A stretch of 38,185 nucleotides of DNA, taken from positions 1 through 38,185 of the IMG/VR virus record IMGVR_UViG_3300032291_001215; one strand, given 5' to 3'. Numbering within the stretch: the stretch's first letter is position 1; each line of letters starts with the position of its first letter. The notes under the pieces were generated by a model. That model searched no databases. It was given only the letters and a program-made list of their open reading frames with translations, and had not been told where the DNA came from. The position numbers and the translations under genes are program-made. Of this stretch, positions 6,638-36,939 are shown one piece after another. This stretch comes from a virus.

Positions 6638-7819
6638 ATGCCAATACTTGTATCAGGCGTTCAATACTCAGGCATCTGGACAATGCAACAGGTGAATGCC
6701 GCTATTGCGGCTGGGACTTGGCCTTTGCCTCCGTATATGTACTCTTGGGGTTTAAACAATACTGGTCAGCTTGGTACTGGAAACATAACAAGTTATTCAT
6801 CTCCAAAACAAGTTGGTTCTTCTGCCAGATGGACAACTGGAGCCTCTGGTGGTTATTGGAATGTTGGAAGAACTTTTGTTGTAGCAATCAAATCCGATAA
6901 TTCGCTTTGGTCTTGGGGCGGTAACACAAAAGGTCAACTTGGTCTTGGAAATAGAACTGATTATTCATCTCCTAAGCAAGTTGGTTCATTGACTACTTGG
7001 TCTTCAGTTTCTGCTGGCGGGGGATATTCAAGTTGTTTTGCCGCCGCAATCAAGTCGGATGGAACATTGTGGGTTTGGGGAGATAACATTGAAGGTCAAT
7101 TAGGTCTTGGCAACAGGACGTCTTATTCCTCACCAAAGCAAGTTGGAGCGTTAACTAATTGGTCAAAAGTTTCTTGCGGTGCTTATTATCAGTACACAGC
7201 CGCCGTCAAAACTGATGGAACATTGTGGTCTTGGGGCTATAACTTCTTTGGTCAACTTGGTCTTGGTAACACAACTTCTTATTCATCTCCAAAGCAGGTT
7301 GGATCTTTAACAAATTGGCTTTCCGTTGCTACTGGGTACGCAACAACTTGGTCAATTAAAACAAACGGAACCTTGTGGTCTTGGGGTTATAACGCCAATG
7401 GAGAGCTTGGTATTGGTAATACAACCGATTACTCCAGTCCAAAACAAATTGGTGCGTTAACTAATTGGCTATCAGTTACTTGTGGATATAACCATGCACT
7501 TGCAATCAAGACGGATGGAACCTTGTGGGCTTGGGGTAGGAACATAGTTGGAAATCTTGGAACTGGAAACATTACCAACTATTCTTCACCAAAACAAATT
7601 GGAGCTTTAACAACATGGTCAAAAACCATGCTGACTGGTAACTATGCTAGTTTTGCCATTAAAACCGACGGTACTTTGTGGTCATGGGGTTTAAATAGCA
7701 ATGGTCAACTTGGACTCAATAATAGAACATATTATTCTTCGCCAAAACAAGTTGGTTCACTAACTACTTGGTATCAAGTATTTTCTGGTAGTGAATCAGC
7801 ATATGCTATAAATCAATAA
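6638..7819 (+). CDS. RCC1-repeat seven-bladed propeller protein, pair A second gene
   Basis: A 393-residue protein beginning one base after the stop of the first RCC1 gene. The N-terminal 35 residues (GVQYSGIW ... AAGTWPLPP) differ from pair A first gene but match the gene at 10736. Seven RCC1 repeats follow, with WG/GQLG pairs such as LWSWGGNTKGQLGL and one variant reading GELG and one GNLG. All seven blades are present, so the propeller should be closed. Like its neighbour it is AT-rich. The likely role is a tail appendage that binds a host surface ligand; the ligand cannot be read from the sequence. Confidence 0.85.
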   Translation: MPILVSGVQYSGIWTMQQVNAAIAAGTWPLPPYMYSWGLNNTGQLGTGNITSYSSPKQVGSSARWTTGASGGYWNVGRTFVVAIKSDNSLWSWGGNTKGQLGLGNRTDYSSPKQVGSLTTWSSVSAGGGYSSCFAAAIKSDGTLWVWGDNIEGQLGLGNRTSYSSPKQVGALTNWSKVSCGAYYQYTAAVKTDGTLWSWGYNFFGQLGLGNTTSYSSPKQVGSLTNWLSVATGYATTWSIKTNGTLWSWGYNANGELGIGNTTDYSSPKQIGALTNWLSVTCGYNHALAIKTDGTLWAWGRNIVGNLGTGNITNYSSPKQIGALTTWSKTMLTGNYASFAIKTDGTLWSWGLNSNGQLGLNNRTYYSSPKQVGSLTTWYQVFSGSESAYAINQ

Positions 7820-22365: not shown

Positions 22366-25300
22366 ATGGCGATTGAAAACAAATACAGCTACGTATACGA
22401 AGACAACCCAGAATACAGCGATGTCTATGTCAATGCATACCTGAACGCTCTTTCAGGCTATGGTTACAATGAAGAGGCCGTCAACAAGATGGCCCAATCC
22501 GTTTTTGGACAACCAGTAAAACAGGCCACAGTCCAAGCCGAGGTTGCCTCTCCTCTATCTACTATTGCCGCCCCAACTAATGTTGTCGAAACTACTGGAG
22601 CCGCAAATACTGGCGCCTTAGACAAATCAGGCGCTGTTACTCAAACCAATCTTAATCAACAGACCGTACCCACTGGTGCGCTTACACAAGCTACACAGCA
22701 AGCGACCACACAAAATCAAGTAACAACACCAAGCACATTGGCGGCTTCAGCCACTGATGTTGACGGGTTACCAACATCAACAGGTCTAACTGCCGCGCAG
22801 AAGTTGGAGCTAGATACTTCCTCTCAAGTTGACGCTGGAAAAACATCAACAGCAAAACCCACCACAGAAAAAATTGAGCTTGAGGGAAAAGTTTACGACA
22901 TCAATCTTGATGATGTTGCCAAACTCAAAGCTCAAATTTTGGCTCAAGGCACTTCAGCAAATTGGACTGGTGCTGGATATGGTTCTCCTGAAGCTAATGC
23001 TGAAGCCATGGCCAAACAGTTGGTTGCCAACGGCGTGAAGGACATCTATCAAGTTGGCATGGTTGATGTCAAAGTTGATCAAGCCGTTACGCCAGTTTAT
23101 GAACAAGGTGACTTGGTCAGTGATGGTGAAGGCGGAAGCTATTACACGCAAAAACTTGTTGGTTACAAGGACGCTCAAGGCAATATCGTAGACCCCAACT
23201 TGGTTAAAACAGAATACATCTCTGGTGGGGAAAGTGGTTCTGACACTACAGCGTATGTAGCTCCTATTGGAACCCAAAAAGTCATTGGTAACAAAGAAAC
23301 AGGACAAGCTTTAATTAAAGCTTTCAGCGAGTCCGACAAAATAGGCGACCTGTGGTCTGGAACCTATGCCGGCGAGGGAAACACAGCCTTCAGAACCACC
23401 TTTACTGCTGACGGGAAACCTATCTTTTACACAACTGGCGGGTCTTCCAATGACTTGGTCAAGATGTTTGCCGACGACCCAATCCTTGGGAAAATTGCCA
23501 CTGCCGCCGCCGCATACTTTGGTGGCCCAGCAGGCGTGGCCGCGCTACAAGCCGCTCAAGGTAAAAGCATTGAAGACATCGCAAAAGGGGCACTGCTGAC
23601 CTATGTGGGTGGTGAAGTTGCTGGACAGATTTCTGGATCTACGGATCTTGTAAACACAATTGGCGCTGACGCAACAAACGTGCTTGCCAAGGGTGCTGGA
23701 AAGTTGGTTTCAAGCCAAGGTAAAGCTGACATTGGCAACTTGCTGATTGGCGGCGGTATCGATGCAGGCGTAAACGCTATCGTTGGAACAATCGATGGTT
23801 TTGATAAATTAAGCGCTGGTGAGCAAGACTTTGTCAAAAACGTAGCAAAGACAACCCTTCAAAATGGTGGTGACTTATCTATTGGCGACTTGGTTGACGC
23901 TGGCATAACAGCCGCAACTACAGCCGCAAAAGCCTCTAAGACCGGGACAATTGCTACAGCTATTCAGGCTGACAAGGCTGTCAACGACGCTGTGAATGCT
24001 GAACTTGATAAGGCTTTGACATTTGATGCTAGTGGTGCGACAGACGTCAATGCGGCACAACAAGCGGCTGATGCGGCTGGTTACGGTAAGTTCACATTCG
24101 GTGGCAAGACTTACACGATTAACGCTAACGAAAACGCAAAGATTGCCGATCTTGAGAGCACCGTAAAATCAGAGACGGATGCGACAAAACTTGCTACAAC
24201 AGCCGCCAATCTGGCTGGCGGTGAGTTTGCCGGAGTAGATGCGGCTGTGGCGGCCAATGCAAAGGCCAACAATACTGTTATTGGTAATGATGAGGCTGAA
24301 ACTCCTGAGCAAGCCGCGGCTTTAGCCAAGGCTCGTAACCCAAATGGTACGACATTCACCTTTGGTGGCCAGACCTACACGTTAGGCACATCAAACGCCG
24401 CTTTGCAAGCCGCAGTTACTCAAGACAAAATTGACAGCGCGACTTCTTTTAATGATGCTTACAAAGCCGCTCGTGATGGCTTGGGGGCTGGCAAAATATT
24501 TACTTGGAACGGTAAACAGTACACCACTGACACCCGTGAAGAGAACCCATCTCTTGCCGCCGCGTCTGACATTGCTCGTCTGAACAGCATTGCCGCTTCA
24601 ACAGAGGCTGGTGGTGGTCGTGGATCAGCCGCTTCCTATGCCAACTATGACGCTAAAGCCGCCGCTAATGCATTGGACAAAACAAAAGTCATCCCAGACT
24701 TCACTGCTGGCGATGCATACGGCTTTAATGATACGGTCTACGACCCATCAACAGGCGTAGCGCTACTGAACAGCACAGCCACTGCCAACCCCAATACTGC
24801 TTTGGGTAAGGCTGTAATTGCCGCAAACAATGCCATAGGCTCTGTTGTGCAGACAGGACTGTCTAACCTTGCCAGCGCAGGCGGAGAGCAACTGGCGGCA
24901 TTTGGTGGCGCTTTGGCCACTATTGGCGCAACAGACGCGAACAACATGCTTGTGAAGGCTGGTAAAGCCGCCCAAGATCTTGGTTCTGCCATTGAAACTG
25001 CTGAGTCCAAGCAAGGCACACAGAATATTGTGAACGCCGTGTCCAAAGCCGATGGCATGGGCGGAAAGCTGATTGCTGGTTTGAAGGCTGGTTGGGAGAA
25101 CCCTGTTGCCGCTTTGAACATGATCACCCGCGAAGGCTTCCAAGAGATCTTGCCTGCTGGAGTGGCTCTTAAAGCCTCCAAGATCATGAGCCTTGCCGCG
25201 GCGGCGGGTATTGATACCGCTTTGAACGCCGGTGAGTCTATGGGTCAGGCATACAACGATGCTTATGCCGCGGCCATCGCCAAGGGCATGAGCAAAGAAA

Positions 25301-27519
25301 ACGCAGATGCACTGGCCACCAAAGTAGGTTTGTCTGCTGGCGCTATCACATTGGTCACCTCTGGTGTCATGGACGCCGCCTTGATCAAGACCGTGTTCCG
25401 AGAAGGCTCTGGCTCCATCGGATCTCAGCTTGCCAAGGGTTCAACCAAGGAAGGTATCTCTGAGAACATTGAAGAGACTGCCACAGCTTTGGCCACACAG
25501 TACCTCACCACAGGAAAGATTGACCTTGGTGATGCGATGACGCAAGGCGCACTTGGTCACTTGATTGGCAAAACAACTGCTGGCTCTGTTGGTGCGGTGG
25601 ATGTCGCCGCTCAGACTGAGACAATCAACAACAACATTTCAACCGCCGTCACTTCTGGAGATGCGGCAAGTGTGAACACGGCGATTACAAACTCTGTCCA
25701 ACAGTCTTTGACCAGTGGCGCGTCTGTTGAGGTTGCTGTTGGGGCTTCTGTCAACTCTGCGATCACCAACGGAGCTGATGCAGGCGCGTCTATCACCTCT
25801 GCCGTGACTTCTGCTGTAACAAATGGTGCAGACGTAACTCAGACCGTCACTTCGTCGATTGACTCAGCTATCACAGCAGGCGCTGACACCTCGGTTGCAA
25901 TCAATTCAACGGTGACCTCTGCTATCACAAGCGGTGCAGATGTGTCTCAGACTGTGTCCAGCTCAATTACAGCGGCCACCAATGCCGGCGTAAATGTTAC
26001 GACTGCAACCAATGCCGCCGTGACAGCCGCTGTATCCACCGCGGTGACGACCGGAGCCAATACAACCACCGCCATCAACACGGCTGTGACCGCGGCTGTA
26101 ACTTCTGGCGCAAATGTCAATGCGGCTGTGACGACCGCTGTAACTGCGGCTGTAGATTCATCGATCACCAATGCGGTGACCAATGGCACAAGCGTAGCTA
26201 CTGCCGTGACAAGCTCTGTGGCTACATCGGTTAATGCGGCTGTGACAAACAACACAAGCGTGACAACGGCGGTTGAGACTGCTGTAACTACGGCCATCAC
26301 TTCTGCGGTTACAAACAATGCAGATGTAAATACCGCTGTTAACTCAGCCGTGACTTCTGCGGTCACAACTGCTGTCACCAGCAACACCAACATAAACACC
26401 GCTGTAACTACCGCCGTCAACTCTGCTGTTACGACTGCGATCAACAACAACGTAAACGCAAACACGGCAATCACCACATCGGTAACAGCGGCAATCAATG
26501 CGGCAGTAACGACAAACGCCAACACCAACACAAATGTAAATACAAACGTAAATACAAATGTGAACACGAACGTGAACACCGCTGTCAACACTGCTGTGAC
26601 AACTGCCGTGGACGCGGCCGTGAATGCTGGTGTGGATGTCAACACTGCTGTAAATGCCGCTGTGAATGCCGCCGTCAGCACAAACGTCAAAATTGACATC
26701 AAAGAGCTGACAAAGTTGGCAACTGATGCGGCAACGGACTCTGTTGCAAAAGTTGACTTGATCAGCTCGGTCAATGACTTGATCTCAGGCACGCCAACGG
26801 ACAAGACAGTTACGTCAACAACACCTAAAACGCCTGTTACAAAAACACCTACAAAAACCTCGCCGGCTTTAACTGCTGGTTTGATGGCTGGCATGGTTGG
26901 CGGGGCTGATTTAGGTCGCCTGCCACCTCAAATGCTCAAGGCGTACATGACTCAGGATAAGTTCGTAGATCCGCTTGCCAAGCTTCATGCTTTGCAAGAT
27001 GACATGAATACTGAGAAAATGCCAGCATTACCTCAAGTTAATACACAGGAAGCAGATATGCCAGATCAAGGCACGTGGAAATACGGGAATGCCCCAGACG
27101 ACATTGACACATTGTTTGGTGAGCAACCAGAGGAAGAGGCCGCTTTCAAGGCTGGTGGCTACGTAGCCCCCTTGCAGATGGCCTCTGGTGGTGCTATGCC
27201 ATTGCCCCTGCTGGCCAAGTCTGGCGGTGCTCTAGGAGCCCTTCCCCGTCCTGACGGCCGCATGGATTTCCGCCACGGCGCCCATGTTGCCGGCGAGGGT
27301 GACGGCCAGTCCGACGACATCAAAGCCATGCTAGCTGACGGTGAGTTTGTGTTCCCTGCGGACGTAGTTTCTGCGCTGGGAAATGGCTCAACCAAGGCTG
27401 GTTCAGATAAACTATACGAAATGATGCACGCCATTCGTGAGAGAGCACGGTCTAAGAAGCCAAAAGACCTGCCACCACCAGCGCTGAAATCACCACTTGA
27501 CTACCTGAAGAAACGGTAA
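22366..27519 (+). CDS. Giant repeat-rich internal/ejection-type virion protein
   Basis: A 1717-residue protein. Residues 60-150 are low-complexity Thr/Gln/Ala. Residues about 560-735 contain three similar units with FTFGGKTYTI, FTFGGQTYTLG and FTWNGKQYTT. Residues about 930-1080 are helical (GFQEILPAGVALKAS, EGISENIEETATALATQYLT). Residues about 1098-1380 are a tandem repeat of Val/Ala/Thr/Asn tetrads. The C-terminal 140 residues (MASGGAMPLPLLAKSGGAL, GEGDGQSDDIKAMLADGEF, VFPADVVSALGNGSTKAG) form a tail shared by many phage ejection-block proteins. It heads the ejection block ending with a transglycosylase, so a role in DNA delivery is likely. An amphipathic repeat could contact membrane. Confidence 0.75.
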   Translation: MAIENKYSYVYEDNPEYSDVYVNAYLNALSGYGYNEEAVNKMAQSVFGQPVKQATVQAEVASPLSTIAAPTNVVETTGAANTGALDKSGAVTQTNLNQQTVPTGALTQATQQATTQNQVTTPSTLAASATDVDGLPTSTGLTAAQKLELDTSSQVDAGKTSTAKPTTEKIELEGKVYDINLDDVAKLKAQILAQGTSANWTGAGYGSPEANAEAMAKQLVANGVKDIYQVGMVDVKVDQAVTPVYEQGDLVSDGEGGSYYTQKLVGYKDAQGNIVDPNLVKTEYISGGESGSDTTAYVAPIGTQKVIGNKETGQALIKAFSESDKIGDLWSGTYAGEGNTAFRTTFTADGKPIFYTTGGSSNDLVKMFADDPILGKIATAAAAYFGGPAGVAALQAAQGKSIEDIAKGALLTYVGGEVAGQISGSTDLVNTIGADATNVLAKGAGKLVSSQGKADIGNLLIGGGIDAGVNAIVGTIDGFDKLSAGEQDFVKNVAKTTLQNGGDLSIGDLVDAGITAATTAAKASKTGTIATAIQADKAVNDAVNAELDKALTFDASGATDVNAAQQAADAAGYGKFTFGGKTYTINANENAKIADLESTVKSETDATKLATTAANLAGGEFAGVDAAVAANAKANNTVIGNDEAETPEQAAALAKARNPNGTTFTFGGQTYTLGTSNAALQAAVTQDKIDSATSFNDAYKAARDGLGAGKIFTWNGKQYTTDTREENPSLAAASDIARLNSIAASTEAGGGRGSAASYANYDAKAAANALDKTKVIPDFTAGDAYGFNDTVYDPSTGVALLNSTATANPNTALGKAVIAANNAIGSVVQTGLSNLASAGGEQLAAFGGALATIGATDANNMLVKAGKAAQDLGSAIETAESKQGTQNIVNAVSKADGMGGKLIAGLKAGWENPVAALNMITREGFQEILPAGVALKASKIMSLAAAAGIDTALNAGESMGQAYNDAYAAAIAKGMSKENADALATKVGLSAGAITLVTSGVMDAALIKTVFREGSGSIGSQLAKGSTKEGISENIEETATALATQYLTTGKIDLGDAMTQGALGHLIGKTTAGSVGAVDVAAQTETINNNISTAVTSGDAASVNTAITNSVQQSLTSGASVEVAVGASVNSAITNGADAGASITSAVTSAVTNGADVTQTVTSSIDSAITAGADTSVAINSTVTSAITSGADVSQTVSSSITAATNAGVNVTTATNAAVTAAVSTAVTTGANTTTAINTAVTAAVTSGANVNAAVTTAVTAAVDSSITNAVTNGTSVATAVTSSVATSVNAAVTNNTSVTTAVETAVTTAITSAVTNNADVNTAVNSAVTSAVTTAVTSNTNINTAVTTAVNSAVTTAINNNVNANTAITTSVTAAINAAVTTNANTNTNVNTNVNTNVNTNVNTAVNTAVTTAVDAAVNAGVDVNTAVNAAVNAAVSTNVKIDIKELTKLATDAATDSVAKVDLISSVNDLISGTPTDKTVTSTTPKTPVTKTPTKTSPALTAGLMAGMVGGADLGRLPPQMLKAYMTQDKFVDPLAKLHALQDDMNTEKMPALPQVNTQEADMPDQGTWKYGNAPDDIDTLFGEQPEEEAAFKAGGYVAPLQMASGGAMPLPLLAKSGGALGALPRPDGRMDFRHGAHVAGEGDGQSDDIKAMLADGEFVFPADVVSALGNGSTKAGSDKLYEMMHAIRERARSKKPKDLPPPALKSPLDYLKKR
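25671..26693 (+). repeat. Tandem 18+4n-residue repeat region inside the giant protein
   Basis: About 300 residues consist of units starting with a turn (NGAD, SGAN, NNTS) followed by tetrads of the form xAVT. Reading the units from turn to turn gives lengths 18, 18, 18, 18, 22, 18, 26, 22, 22, 22, 22, 22, 38 and 18, always 18 plus a multiple of 4. One unit contains a VNTN run repeated four times. The DNA is less repetitive than the protein, so the pattern is kept by selection or is old. It may form a long amphipathic helix array. Confidence 0.7.
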
Positions 27520-35298: not shown

Positions 35299-35516
35299 TA
35301 CACCCCCAGAGCAACCAAGGTTGAAACGAGTACAGCAAGGAAGATGATGTACGCAACCCAGCCAAACACACGACGCTCTGAGTACTCAGGCTCGATGCCA
35401 AGCAGAGCCATCTGAATGCGTTCAGCATCAGCACTCATGTGATTACGTTGGGGAGGGCTGTACATACAGCCAATGCGAAGACCAGACTTGGTCGTGTAGG
35501 GAAGGTGTTTTTCCAT
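35298..35516 (-). CDS. Small C-terminally anchored membrane protein, first gene of the minus operon
   Basis: A 72-residue protein. The N-terminal YTTKSGLRIGCMYSPPQRNH and ADAERIQMALLG look like a small phage domain; residues about 47-72 (VFGWVAYIIFLAVLVSTLVA) form a C-terminal membrane anchor. I chose the ATG at 35516 because GGAG lies 8 bases before it; another ATG at 35528 is possible. Codons further upstream lie above the predicted transcription start. It is the first gene behind the minus-strand promoter. Confidence 0.6.
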   Translation of the reverse strand: MEKHLPYTTKSGLRIGCMYSPPQRNHMSADAERIQMALLGIEPEYSERRVFGWVAYIIFLAVLVSTLVALGV

Positions 35517-35551
35517 TTGATTCTCCATAACCGCCGTATCGGCGTGCGCAG

Positions 35552-35581
35552 ATCTTAACACCAAATTAAAAACCAGTGCAA
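35552..35581 (-). promoter_or_regulatory. Sigma-70-like promoter of the minus operon
   Basis: Read on the minus strand, TTGCAC (35581-35576), an 18-base AT-rich spacer and TAAGAT (35557-35552) with TG one base before it (an extended -10). Transcription would start near 35545, about 30 bases before the ATG at 35516, and serve the whole set of overlapping minus genes. Confidence 0.55.
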
Positions 35582-35605
35582 TACATTCCCGAGTGAAACG
35601 TGGGG

Positions 35606-35634
35606 TTTCTTTTAATTCGAAGTTAATGTATACT
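35606..35634 (+). promoter_or_regulatory. Possible plus-strand promoter before the structured RNA
   Basis: TATACT at 35629-35634 is a good -10 hexamer. The matching -35 region (TTTCTT at 35606-35611, 17-base spacing) is poor, so an activator may be needed. An inverted repeat GAAAC-GTGGG-GTTTC (35596-35610) overlaps that region and could be an operator. The start would fall at about 35641, exactly where the first RNA helix begins. Confidence 0.4.
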
Positions 35635-35641
35635 CTGCCAC

Positions 35642-35800
35642 GTTAGCGCACAGTAATCAGGTTGGGTTTGCTTTCTGCCGAATCTATTCTCTCTCTGTGG
35701 CTCCCTGCGCTAACACCAATACGCATGGGGATTGTCCTCTGGGGGTTCCCGGAGGCCCGGAACAGTCCCCAGCCGTGTTGGTGGTGTGGCGGGTTAGCGC
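35642..35800 (+). ncRNA. Structured untranslated RNA or leader upstream of the regulator
   Basis: No gene is seen at 35517-35880. Within it, plus-strand RNA can form a hairpin of three helices: CACCAATACG (35714-35723) with CGTGTTGGTG (35774-35783), TGGGGATTGT (35726-35735) with ACAGTCCCCA (35762-35771), and CCTCTGGG (35736-35743) with CCCGGAGG (35748-35755) around a GGTT loop. Each helix has exactly one G-U pair, always U on the left. GCGCTAAC (35707-35714) can pair either with GTTAGCGC at 35642-35649 or with the identical GTTAGCGC at 35793-35800. This may be a regulatory 5' leader of the YdaS-like gene or an independent small RNA. No known RNA family is recognised. Confidence 0.55.
35642..35800. 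repeat. Three GTTAGCGC repeats, two direct and one inverted
   Basis: GTTAGCGC occurs at 35642-35649 and 35793-35800, and inverted (GCGCTAAC) at 35707-35714. They may be RNA pairing partners or operators for the regulator encoded at 35881. I noticed no further copy of the 8-mer in the neighbouring divergent region. Confidence 0.6.
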
Positions 35801-35880
35801 CGTTACAGACTTAACCGTCGGATGAAACGCTTAAAAACACACTGCTTTATGTGAGCCACCAACAACCAATTGAGGACACG

Positions 35881-36084
35881 ATGACACTGCAAGAGTATTT
35901 CAAGACGGAGCCGTTGGGCGCAAGAGGTGAGATGGCCGAATACTTGGGCATCAGCCTGACATGGATGTCACTGCTCATCCATGAGCGTAGAACTGCGTCT
36001 GCCGCATTGGCCGTCAAGATTGAAAAAGCAACACAAGGGCTGGTCACAAGAAAAGACTTGCGGCCAGATCTGTTTTTCGTGTAA
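35881..36084 (+). CDS. YdaS-like/Cro-type helix-turn-helix regulator
   Basis: A 67-residue protein. TLQEYFKTEPLGARGEMAEY, then GISLTWMSLLIHERRTAS and KIEKATQGLVTRKDLRPD, match the YdaS/Cro-like family found in lambdoid and Burkholderiales prophages. The helix-turn-helix spans about residues 16-40. I chose the ATG at 35881 because GAGG lies 6 bases before it and the family begins with MTLxEYF; upstream codons lack a ribosome binding site. It follows the 240-base structured leader and probably controls the divergent region. No partner cI gene is visible in the window. Confidence 0.85.
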   Translation: MTLQEYFKTEPLGARGEMAEYLGISLTWMSLLIHERRTASAALAVKIEKATQGLVTRKDLRPDLFFV

Positions 36085-36104
36085 CATGATTTGAAACACG
36101 GCTA

Positions 36105-36126
36105 GGTAGGGCTTGATCACCCTGCC
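36105..36126 (+). promoter_or_regulatory. Hairpin between the regulator and replication genes
   Basis: GGTAGGG (36105-36111) pairs with CCCTGCC (36120-36126) around an 8-base loop, with one U-G pair on the plus strand. No T-run follows, so it is not a standard terminator. It lies in the 102-base gap before the DUF1376 gene and may shape the mRNA leader. Confidence 0.4.
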
Positions 36127-36186
36127 GAAAAGCGTCCCATCCCCGCCTGCCGCAGTTTCTTTAGGGATGTGAATTTTGGGATCGGT

Positions 36187-36939
36187 ATGCACTACTTTCA
36201 ATTCAATATTGGCGACTATAGAGCCGCCACCGCGCATCTTTCAAACGATGAGGATCTTGCTTATCGCAGGCTCCTCGACATGTACTACGACACTGAACAG
36301 AAAATCCCATTGGATACCCAGTGGGTTGCCAGACGGTTACGTGTTGGAACCCAAGTGGTTGATGCTGTCTTGGCCGATATGTTCGAGAAGCATGAGGATG
36401 GCTGGTTTCACGCCAGATGTGACGAAGTTATCAAGCAATACAGAGAGTTTGCTGAGGCTGGAAAGCGTGGGGCGGCCAAGAGGTGGGCTAACAAGGGTGT
36501 TACACCCCCTAATGGGGAGGCTAATAGCCCCCCTAATCCATCCCCAATAGCAACTAATAACCAAGAACCAATAACTACTAACGAATCTATAGAAGCTAAA
36601 GCTTCTCCTGACCTCGGCAAGCCGAAGTCAGTGCCATCTGCACCGATTCAGGAAATTGTGGAGATGTACAACAAGCTCCTTCCAATGTTGCCAGCAGTCT
36701 CTGTGGTCAACGATTCACGTAAGAGAGCGATAGCGGCAAGGTGGCGGGAAGTGGTGACGACCGACAAGATGGATCGTCAGCAAGGGCTTGAGTTCTTCGA
36801 GTGGTACTTCACCATGGTCAAGGATTCCAACTTCCTGACAGGCAAGTCCAAAGACTGGAAAGCCGATCTGGACTTCCTGTTCAACGCAAGCAAGTTTCCC
36901 CGAATCATCGAAGGCACATACCACAAGGATCAAAAATGA
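36187..36939 (+). CDS. DUF1376 (YdaU-like) replication-region protein
   Basis: A 250-residue protein. MHYFQFNIGDYRAATAHLSN, then DLAYRRLLDMYYDTEQKIP, is the classic DUF1376 start, a winged-helix-like domain in prophage replication genes. Residues about 105-160 are a Pro/Asn/Thr-rich linker; residues 165-250 form a helical domain with a WREVVTTDKM ... FEWYF pattern and KDWKADLDFLFNASKFPRII, a typical ending of replication O-like proteins. I used the ATG at 36187, with GGGA upstream, because the family starts exactly there; a GTG at 36169 would add six odd residues. It probably binds the origin and helps load the host helicase. Confidence 0.85.
   Translation: MHYFQFNIGDYRAATAHLSNDEDLAYRRLLDMYYDTEQKIPLDTQWVARRLRVGTQVVDAVLADMFEKHEDGWFHARCDEVIKQYREFAEAGKRGAAKRWANKGVTPPNGEANSPPNPSPIATNNQEPITTNESIEAKASPDLGKPKSVPSAPIQEIVEMYNKLLPMLPAVSVVNDSRKRAIAARWREVVTTDKMDRQQGLEFFEWYFTMVKDSNFLTGKSKDWKADLDFLFNASKFPRIIEGTYHKDQK

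Follow-up and report, generated by a model that had tools for sequence, protein, structure and literature searches.

A plus-strand RNA hairpin in a phage genome is one of three recurring, interchangeable building blocks at the start of a putative early mRNA

Why would a phage place a long RNA hairpin at the start of an early transcript, and is it the RNA or the symmetry of the DNA that is kept? The window analysed here, 38,185 nucleotides of viral DNA (IMG/VR record IMGVR_UViG_3300032291_001215), raises this question at 35714-35783, where a sequence-only reading had proposed three helices of 10, 10 and 8 bp interrupted by a 2x2 internal loop and a 6-base bulge. Our folds, both minimum-free-energy and centroid, reproduce this architecture, and they bear out that all three non-Watson-Crick pairs are U-G on the plus strand. 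The hairpin is made up as follows:

35714-35783, plus strand: the reported hairpin, consisting of the P1 scaffold (helices 1 and 2 around the CA/GC internal loop) and insert A (helix 3 and the bulge)
35714-35723/35774-35783, plus strand: helix 1, 10 bp
35724-35773, plus strand: 2x2 internal loop, CA (35724-35725) opposite GC (35772-35773), nearly invariant in the scaffold family
35726-35735/35762-35771, plus strand: helix 2, 10 bp
35736-35743/35748-35755, plus strand: helix 3, 8 bp
35744-35747, plus strand: GGUU loop of helix 3
35756-35761, plus strand: 6-nt bulge

The plus strand folds at -46 kcal/mol versus -26.0 +/- 3.3 for shuffled sequence (z -6.1; 0 of 200 dinucleotide shuffles), and the minus strand at -34.7 kcal/mol (z -3.2). 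An alignment of 16 distinct copies of the hairpin with insert A has 90.4% of its cells paired and eight pairs changed on both sides; its covariation score, which carries the caveat that applies to related sequences, exceeds all 500 shuffles and all slid controls, and RNAalifold is concordant. The outermost pair of helix 1 forms in just 4 of these 16 copies and the tenth pair of helix 2 in just 6; the recurrent core is 6 + 9 bp flanking the nearly invariant internal loop.

The earlier reading overlooked two things: the hairpin is a single unit in a leader built of modules (35642-35863), and the whole insert is missing from most close relatives. From the -10 box to the start codon of the first gene, which encodes a helix-turn-helix (HTH) protein, the leader spans ~230 nt and carries D, P1 with insert A, and K, in that order:

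35629-35634, plus strand: -10 box TATACT of a rightward promoter, conserved in relatives with and without the insert
35642-35714, plus strand: module D, an inverted repeat with stem GTTAGCGCA/TGCGCTAAC (35642-35650/35706-35714) around AGTAATC...CTCCCTG
35777-35863, plus strand: module K, with enclosing stem GTTGGTGGT/GCCACCAAC at 35777-35785/35855-35863
35788-35804, plus strand: K hairpin 1, GGCGG-GUUAGCG-CCGUU
35840-35853, plus strand: K hairpin 2, CAC-UGCUUUAU-GUG
35796-35798 with 35844-35846, plus strand: K kissing loops, AGC with GCU
35872-35876, plus strand: ribosome-binding site GAGGA, called from sequence
35881-36084, plus strand: first gene, 67-aa HTH (repressor-like) protein (PHROG 35, transcriptional repressor, E 2.4e-9)
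36169-36939, plus strand: second gene, replication/primosomal protein (PHROGs 9327, 4118, 345 and others)

The first module begins 7 nt past the -10 box and has the orientation of the downstream gene. No full sigma-70 consensus promoter was called in the window, so the promoter call rests on conservation and position.

What recurs in the hairpin is its arms and not its interior: AACACGCATGGGGATTG, mostly 27-83 nt, then CAGTCCCCAGCCGTGTTGG. Its 17-mer is present in four viral loci and one relative at the same locus, and scanning IMG/VR with the arm pattern returned at least 120 stretches. The P1 scaffold can be written AACACG-CA-UGGGGAUUG...CAGUCCCCA-GC-CGUGUU around an exchangeable insert. At least 159 distinct units in at least 118 arrays were collected, nearly all on IMG/VR contigs, with exact-pattern searches that favour conserved arms and from sequences that are mostly uncultured contigs related among themselves; the 118 arrays listed comprise 85 single, 27 double, 4 triple and 2 quadruple ones. 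Across the paired positions of the 159 copies there are 2126 Watson-Crick pairs, 207 G-U, 5 A-C and 47 other combinations, which supports the earlier proposal that a plus-strand RNA is under selection. As the search pattern leaves little of the 5' arm free to vary, the count was repeated on 27 units matching no search pattern (344 Watson-Crick, 35 G-U, 2 A-C, 24 other); since these units, with their unmatched 5' arm, still show 35:2, the skew was not produced by the search. In the internal loop, C lies opposite C or U in 153/159 copies and A opposite G in 150/159. One U-G pair of helix 2 is retained in 137/159 and replaced by U-A or C-G in 21. The inserts and closed modules form many recurring families and many singletons. 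Taken alone, most inserts are no more stably folded than shuffled controls (mean z -0.7 and -0.35), and the idea that they are strongly folded RNAs is unsupported on average by energy alone.

The largest of these families is K, whose core, scanned for independently, is present in at least 119 viral stretches. An uninterrupted stem of 8 or more bp encloses 101 of 106 copies, versus about 41 with permuted flanks, and 52 different stem sequences are used among the 106. Paired changes are seen in hairpin 1 (CGG/CCG, AGG/CCU, UGG/CCA) and hairpin 2 (CAC/GUG, CCC/GGG, CUC/GAG, UCC/GGA), and the AGC/GCU loop-loop pairing becomes GGC/GCC in some copies. Because extraction required the inner pairing, unbiased evidence comes from the two outer pairs of hairpin 1 and from the unselected stem test. 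K is also found within the P1 scaffold (L176, L411, L469, L499), and inserts therefore move between holders. D, the first 73 nt of the leader, is a smaller family with about six other members, in which the core is shared and the paired stems differ (L166, L171, L174, L179, L192, L209). A stem of at least 6 bp is present in 8 of 12 D candidates (permuted mean 3.0, maximum 6); one of the eight, L312, is probably a chance match.

How stable is this leader between relatives? Two sets of viral loci were compared, 80 gathered through the replication protein and 80 through the HTH protein. Close relatives align across the region without about 220 bp that contain the hairpin, and 23 loci are module-free, with a -10 box TATACT lying 26-27 nt before the start codon; folding the upstream regions of close relatives yielded no such hairpin. 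At nine loci a different leader sequence occupies the same spot (the window, L092, L093, L099, L107, L108, L110, L116 and L122), these leaders beginning 6-12 nt after the -10 hexamer and their modules varying between relatives; L105 has the leader of L099. The right junction in the window also differs, at the ribosome-binding site, which gives it the look of leader replacement by recombination and not of transposition with target duplication. In a blastn search, the window region matched no annotated phage or plasmid.

Similar placement is seen elsewhere, with gene starts near arrays scored by Shine-Dalgarno plus start counts, as naive ORF calling is unreliable. TANNNT hexamers are most frequent 12-13 and 17 nt ahead of the K stem; within 60 nt downstream of K, 42/100 cases have a Shine-Dalgarno sequence with a start codon, versus 4/100 on the opposite side. 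For P1 arrays the counts are 62/90 after the array and 24/90 on the other side, with -10-like hexamers 15-20 nt upstream. Modules thus tend to start at promoters, oriented with the downstream gene, chained, and sometimes beside tRNAs. These positions suggest that transcription begins at promoters directly before the first module, which would put the modules at about +1. The flanking genes, read from sequence and not from a database, are diverse (HNH-nuclease-like, terminase, primase-like, Cro-like and small proteins), and diverse downstream genes fit a partner that is not gene-specific.

The comparisons demonstrate conservation of a plus-strand RNA, organization in modules and arrays, and gain and loss of modules at one locus. 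What, then, is the leader for? Most likely, we infer, it acts in cis, protecting or regulating the early transcript. We give about an even chance to the fuller reading, a modular structured 5'-leader RNA of the early HTH/replication transcript that acts in cis and independently of the gene behind it. The modules would occupy almost all of the 5' leader, starting at about +1 and stopping shortly ahead of the ribosome-binding site. P1, with its 6-bp outer stem, CA/GC internal loop and 9-bp stem, would be the constant holder of an exchangeable insert. Its GUUGGUG end has two alternative partners, the 5' arm of P1 and the CACCAAC of the following module, and would in this way couple adjacent modules. 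The modules would close the 5' end and present conserved loops to a general partner, for which RNA polymerase (as for the put RNA of phage HK022) or the RNA-decay or ribosome-loading machinery are candidates; early phage transcripts might thereby be better elongated, stabilized or timed. Stabilization of the 5' end is as simple a cis reading as put-like action. Against acting in cis stand the tRNA company of some arrays and the tRNA-like modules, which fit trans-acting RNAs equally well, as well as some arrays that lie directly after a terminator with no evident promoter, the weak folding of most inserts and the negative consensus-promoter call in the window.

The closest functional parallel we considered is HK022 put RNA (putL/putR), which brings about RNA-only antitermination by modifying RNA polymerase; putL closely follows an early promoter, and each put element combines two stem-loops with a triple helix and lacks an enclosing stem, members being similar in sequence (PMC9378689). 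The likeness lies in the size and build (a phage RNA of ~70-90 nt made of stem-loops), in the place of the first module of the window 7 nt past the -10 box of the HTH/replication promoter, and in the expected action on whichever transcript carries the RNA. Compared by put's published description, however, a long stem of free sequence closes K, which also has kissing loops, P1 consists of one hairpin interrupted by an internal loop, and a CA/GC scaffold with exchangeable inserts forms arrays. Because the put architecture differs, we do not class the modules as put elements, and a put-like function is proposed here by analogy.

Could the modules instead be cut from a precursor, like tRNAs, and act as separate small RNAs, for instance as tRNA-like decoys against host nucleases or defence, the gene position merely supplying a promoter? 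Their tRNA company and array form make this the main rival to the cis-acting leader, possible though rather unlikely in our estimate. Canonical same-strand tRNAs are near 14 of the 118 arrays, some array modules themselves resemble tRNAs (RF00005, E 2e-6 to 8e-4), their acceptor being GUUGGUG/CACCAAC and their anticodon region enlarged, and many module families occur in chains. Terminators follow few arrays, a mild enrichment over controls (8/103 versus 13/515). Phage tRNA arrays likewise string small closed RNAs together on a single strand; none of P1, K, D and A, however, is a tRNA, and the modules share P1 holders. Against trans action, modules are fitted at short spacing between the promoter and the ribosome-binding site of genes, and those of the window are not tRNA-like, none of its elements matching tRNA (RF00005) or ARAGORN models.

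Is the leader a switch? The 3' end of P1, GUUGGUG, may pair back with the P1 5' arm or forward with a CACCAAC that closes the next module. A perfect 7-nt partner lies within 300 nt downstream in 74 of 154 units versus 3 of 154 shuffled, most often followed by AAC, and by this complementarity P1 hairpins alternate with closed modules. The K enclosing stem of the window shares GUUGGUG with the 3' arm of helix 1, so both folds compete, the competing strand lying just upstream of the ribosome-binding site. Computed energies, which leave out the kissing interaction, are near-equal (P1-closed -86.2, K-closed -85.7, P1 plus D -87.1 kcal/mol); with the P1-closed and K-closed folds within about 1.4 kcal/mol, a local switch that regulates translation or elongation of the HTH/replication transcript could operate. 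We nevertheless regard it as unlikely, since it has no known ligand or signal and the competition differs between copies, the P1 5' extension amounting to just 2-3 pairs in many arrays.

That the modules are cassettes spread by recombination between conserved arms, with no function for the phage, accords with turnover at one locus and with the same inserts in different holders; we consider it very improbable, as compensatory changes and G-U pairs preserve the helices across widely diverged copies, which requires selection on the RNA, and neither target duplication nor an encoded enzyme was found.

A DNA-level element (attC-like site, host REP repeat, cruciform or terminator) is the least probable reading and is already contradicted: the modules are palindromic, repeated in arrays and have GTT/AAC ends, whereas the G-U/A-C skew favours a plus-strand RNA. 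Integron attC sites are imperfect hairpins with a constant arm pair and a variable interior, carried in arrays, and of similar size; they differ in boxes (RYYYAAC/GTTRRRY, which the 3' box GTTGGTG does not fit), strand bias and the need for an integrase, and the record, which may be incomplete, has no match to PF00589 (tyrosine integrase). A host REP/BIME repeat does not fit either: none of the 300 genomes taken from the order of G001, a Burkholderiales-titled genome representing one likely host order, contains the P1 pattern. In the wider genome collection a 16-base pattern gave mostly chance matches, with the 3' arm present too at just three loci. No intrinsic terminator was called in 35480-36200; the hairpin is followed by GTGTGGCGGG and no T-run.

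Do the modules belong to a known family? At the families' gathering cut-offs Rfam 15 has no match in the window, and over 35500-35950 only chance-level ones; 12 array loci gave tRNAs only, and matches in further array loci were to tRNA and int-alpA or at chance level, with no family among them for P1, K, D or A. The open-access literature searched holds no description of the four. They nonetheless fall among kinds that already exist, structured phage leader RNAs and RNA arrays; the organization of a constant holder with an exchangeable insert is, to our knowledge, not described. GOLLD and ROOL, often found in phages and near tRNAs, are structured RNAs as well, while the units here are small, exchangeable and without an Rfam match. 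Both are large, ornate phage-associated RNAs with determined structures (PMC12286853). The int-alpA RNA (RF02996) is likewise a structured intergenic phage RNA with a weak match in the same operon, yet it is a separate element that matches neither the hairpin nor K. That match, at 36095-36169 between the HTH and replication genes (E 0.0019, 25.5 bits against a gathering threshold of 35.8), lies in a segment conserved in relatives.

P1 and K are thus absent from Rfam 15 while each is present in more than 100 viral contig stretches, typically directly behind phage promoters, and more than 100 uncultured phages carry such blocks singly or chained. Tentatively, and with somewhat less confidence than in the cis-acting leader itself, we propose a cassette-like phage RNA system, an RNA counterpart of gene-cassette arrays: constant scaffolds and exchangeable modules chained at promoters, their content turning over between close relatives, that would serve early infection through polymerase modification or counter-defence. 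Should the modules be put-like, they would make RNA-only control of early transcription in phages a far larger class and a more modular one; should they act in trans, they would be a store of effector RNAs for phages. A natural experiment is available in close relatives that share the promoter and differ in having or lacking the modules.

Related modules also occur, unannotated, in Klebsiella phage RCIP0114, Pseudomonas phage Itty13 and a metagenomic podophage. In RCIP0114 (L400) the module at 2001-2087, AGAACCUUUC...GUAGGGCGC, is common to freshwater arrays and Itty13 and sits between a hypothetical gene and a SAR-endolysin gene region. Itty13 (L401) has a large unannotated region at 1764-2646 with several RNA-like modules, one of which is tRNA-like, has an enlarged anticodon region and is found again in Pseudomonas phages Shamal and Haboob. 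A complete P1 adjoins a tRNA-Asn-like gene in the metagenomic podophage MW202484. A related module lies beside an 'antitermination protein' in one metagenomic phage (L403); the late-promoter (Q antiterminator) idea that this raises is not general, because flanking genes vary. Acceptor, D and T arms are intact in the tRNA-like modules L279:6178-6281, L221:653-756, L268:1921-2033 and L269:482-622; a longer sequence replaces the anticodon region in the first two, and extra sequence is inserted in the other two. P1 starts soon after the U-tract of an intrinsic terminator in L162, L176, L230, L267, L272 and L283, several of which leave little room for a promoter.

Elsewhere in the window, 22366-27519 encodes a 1717-aa protein without any PHROG match, and 6638-7819 encodes, among tail-like genes, a 393-aa protein matching the PHROGs annotation 'regulator of chromosome condensation' (E 1e-51).
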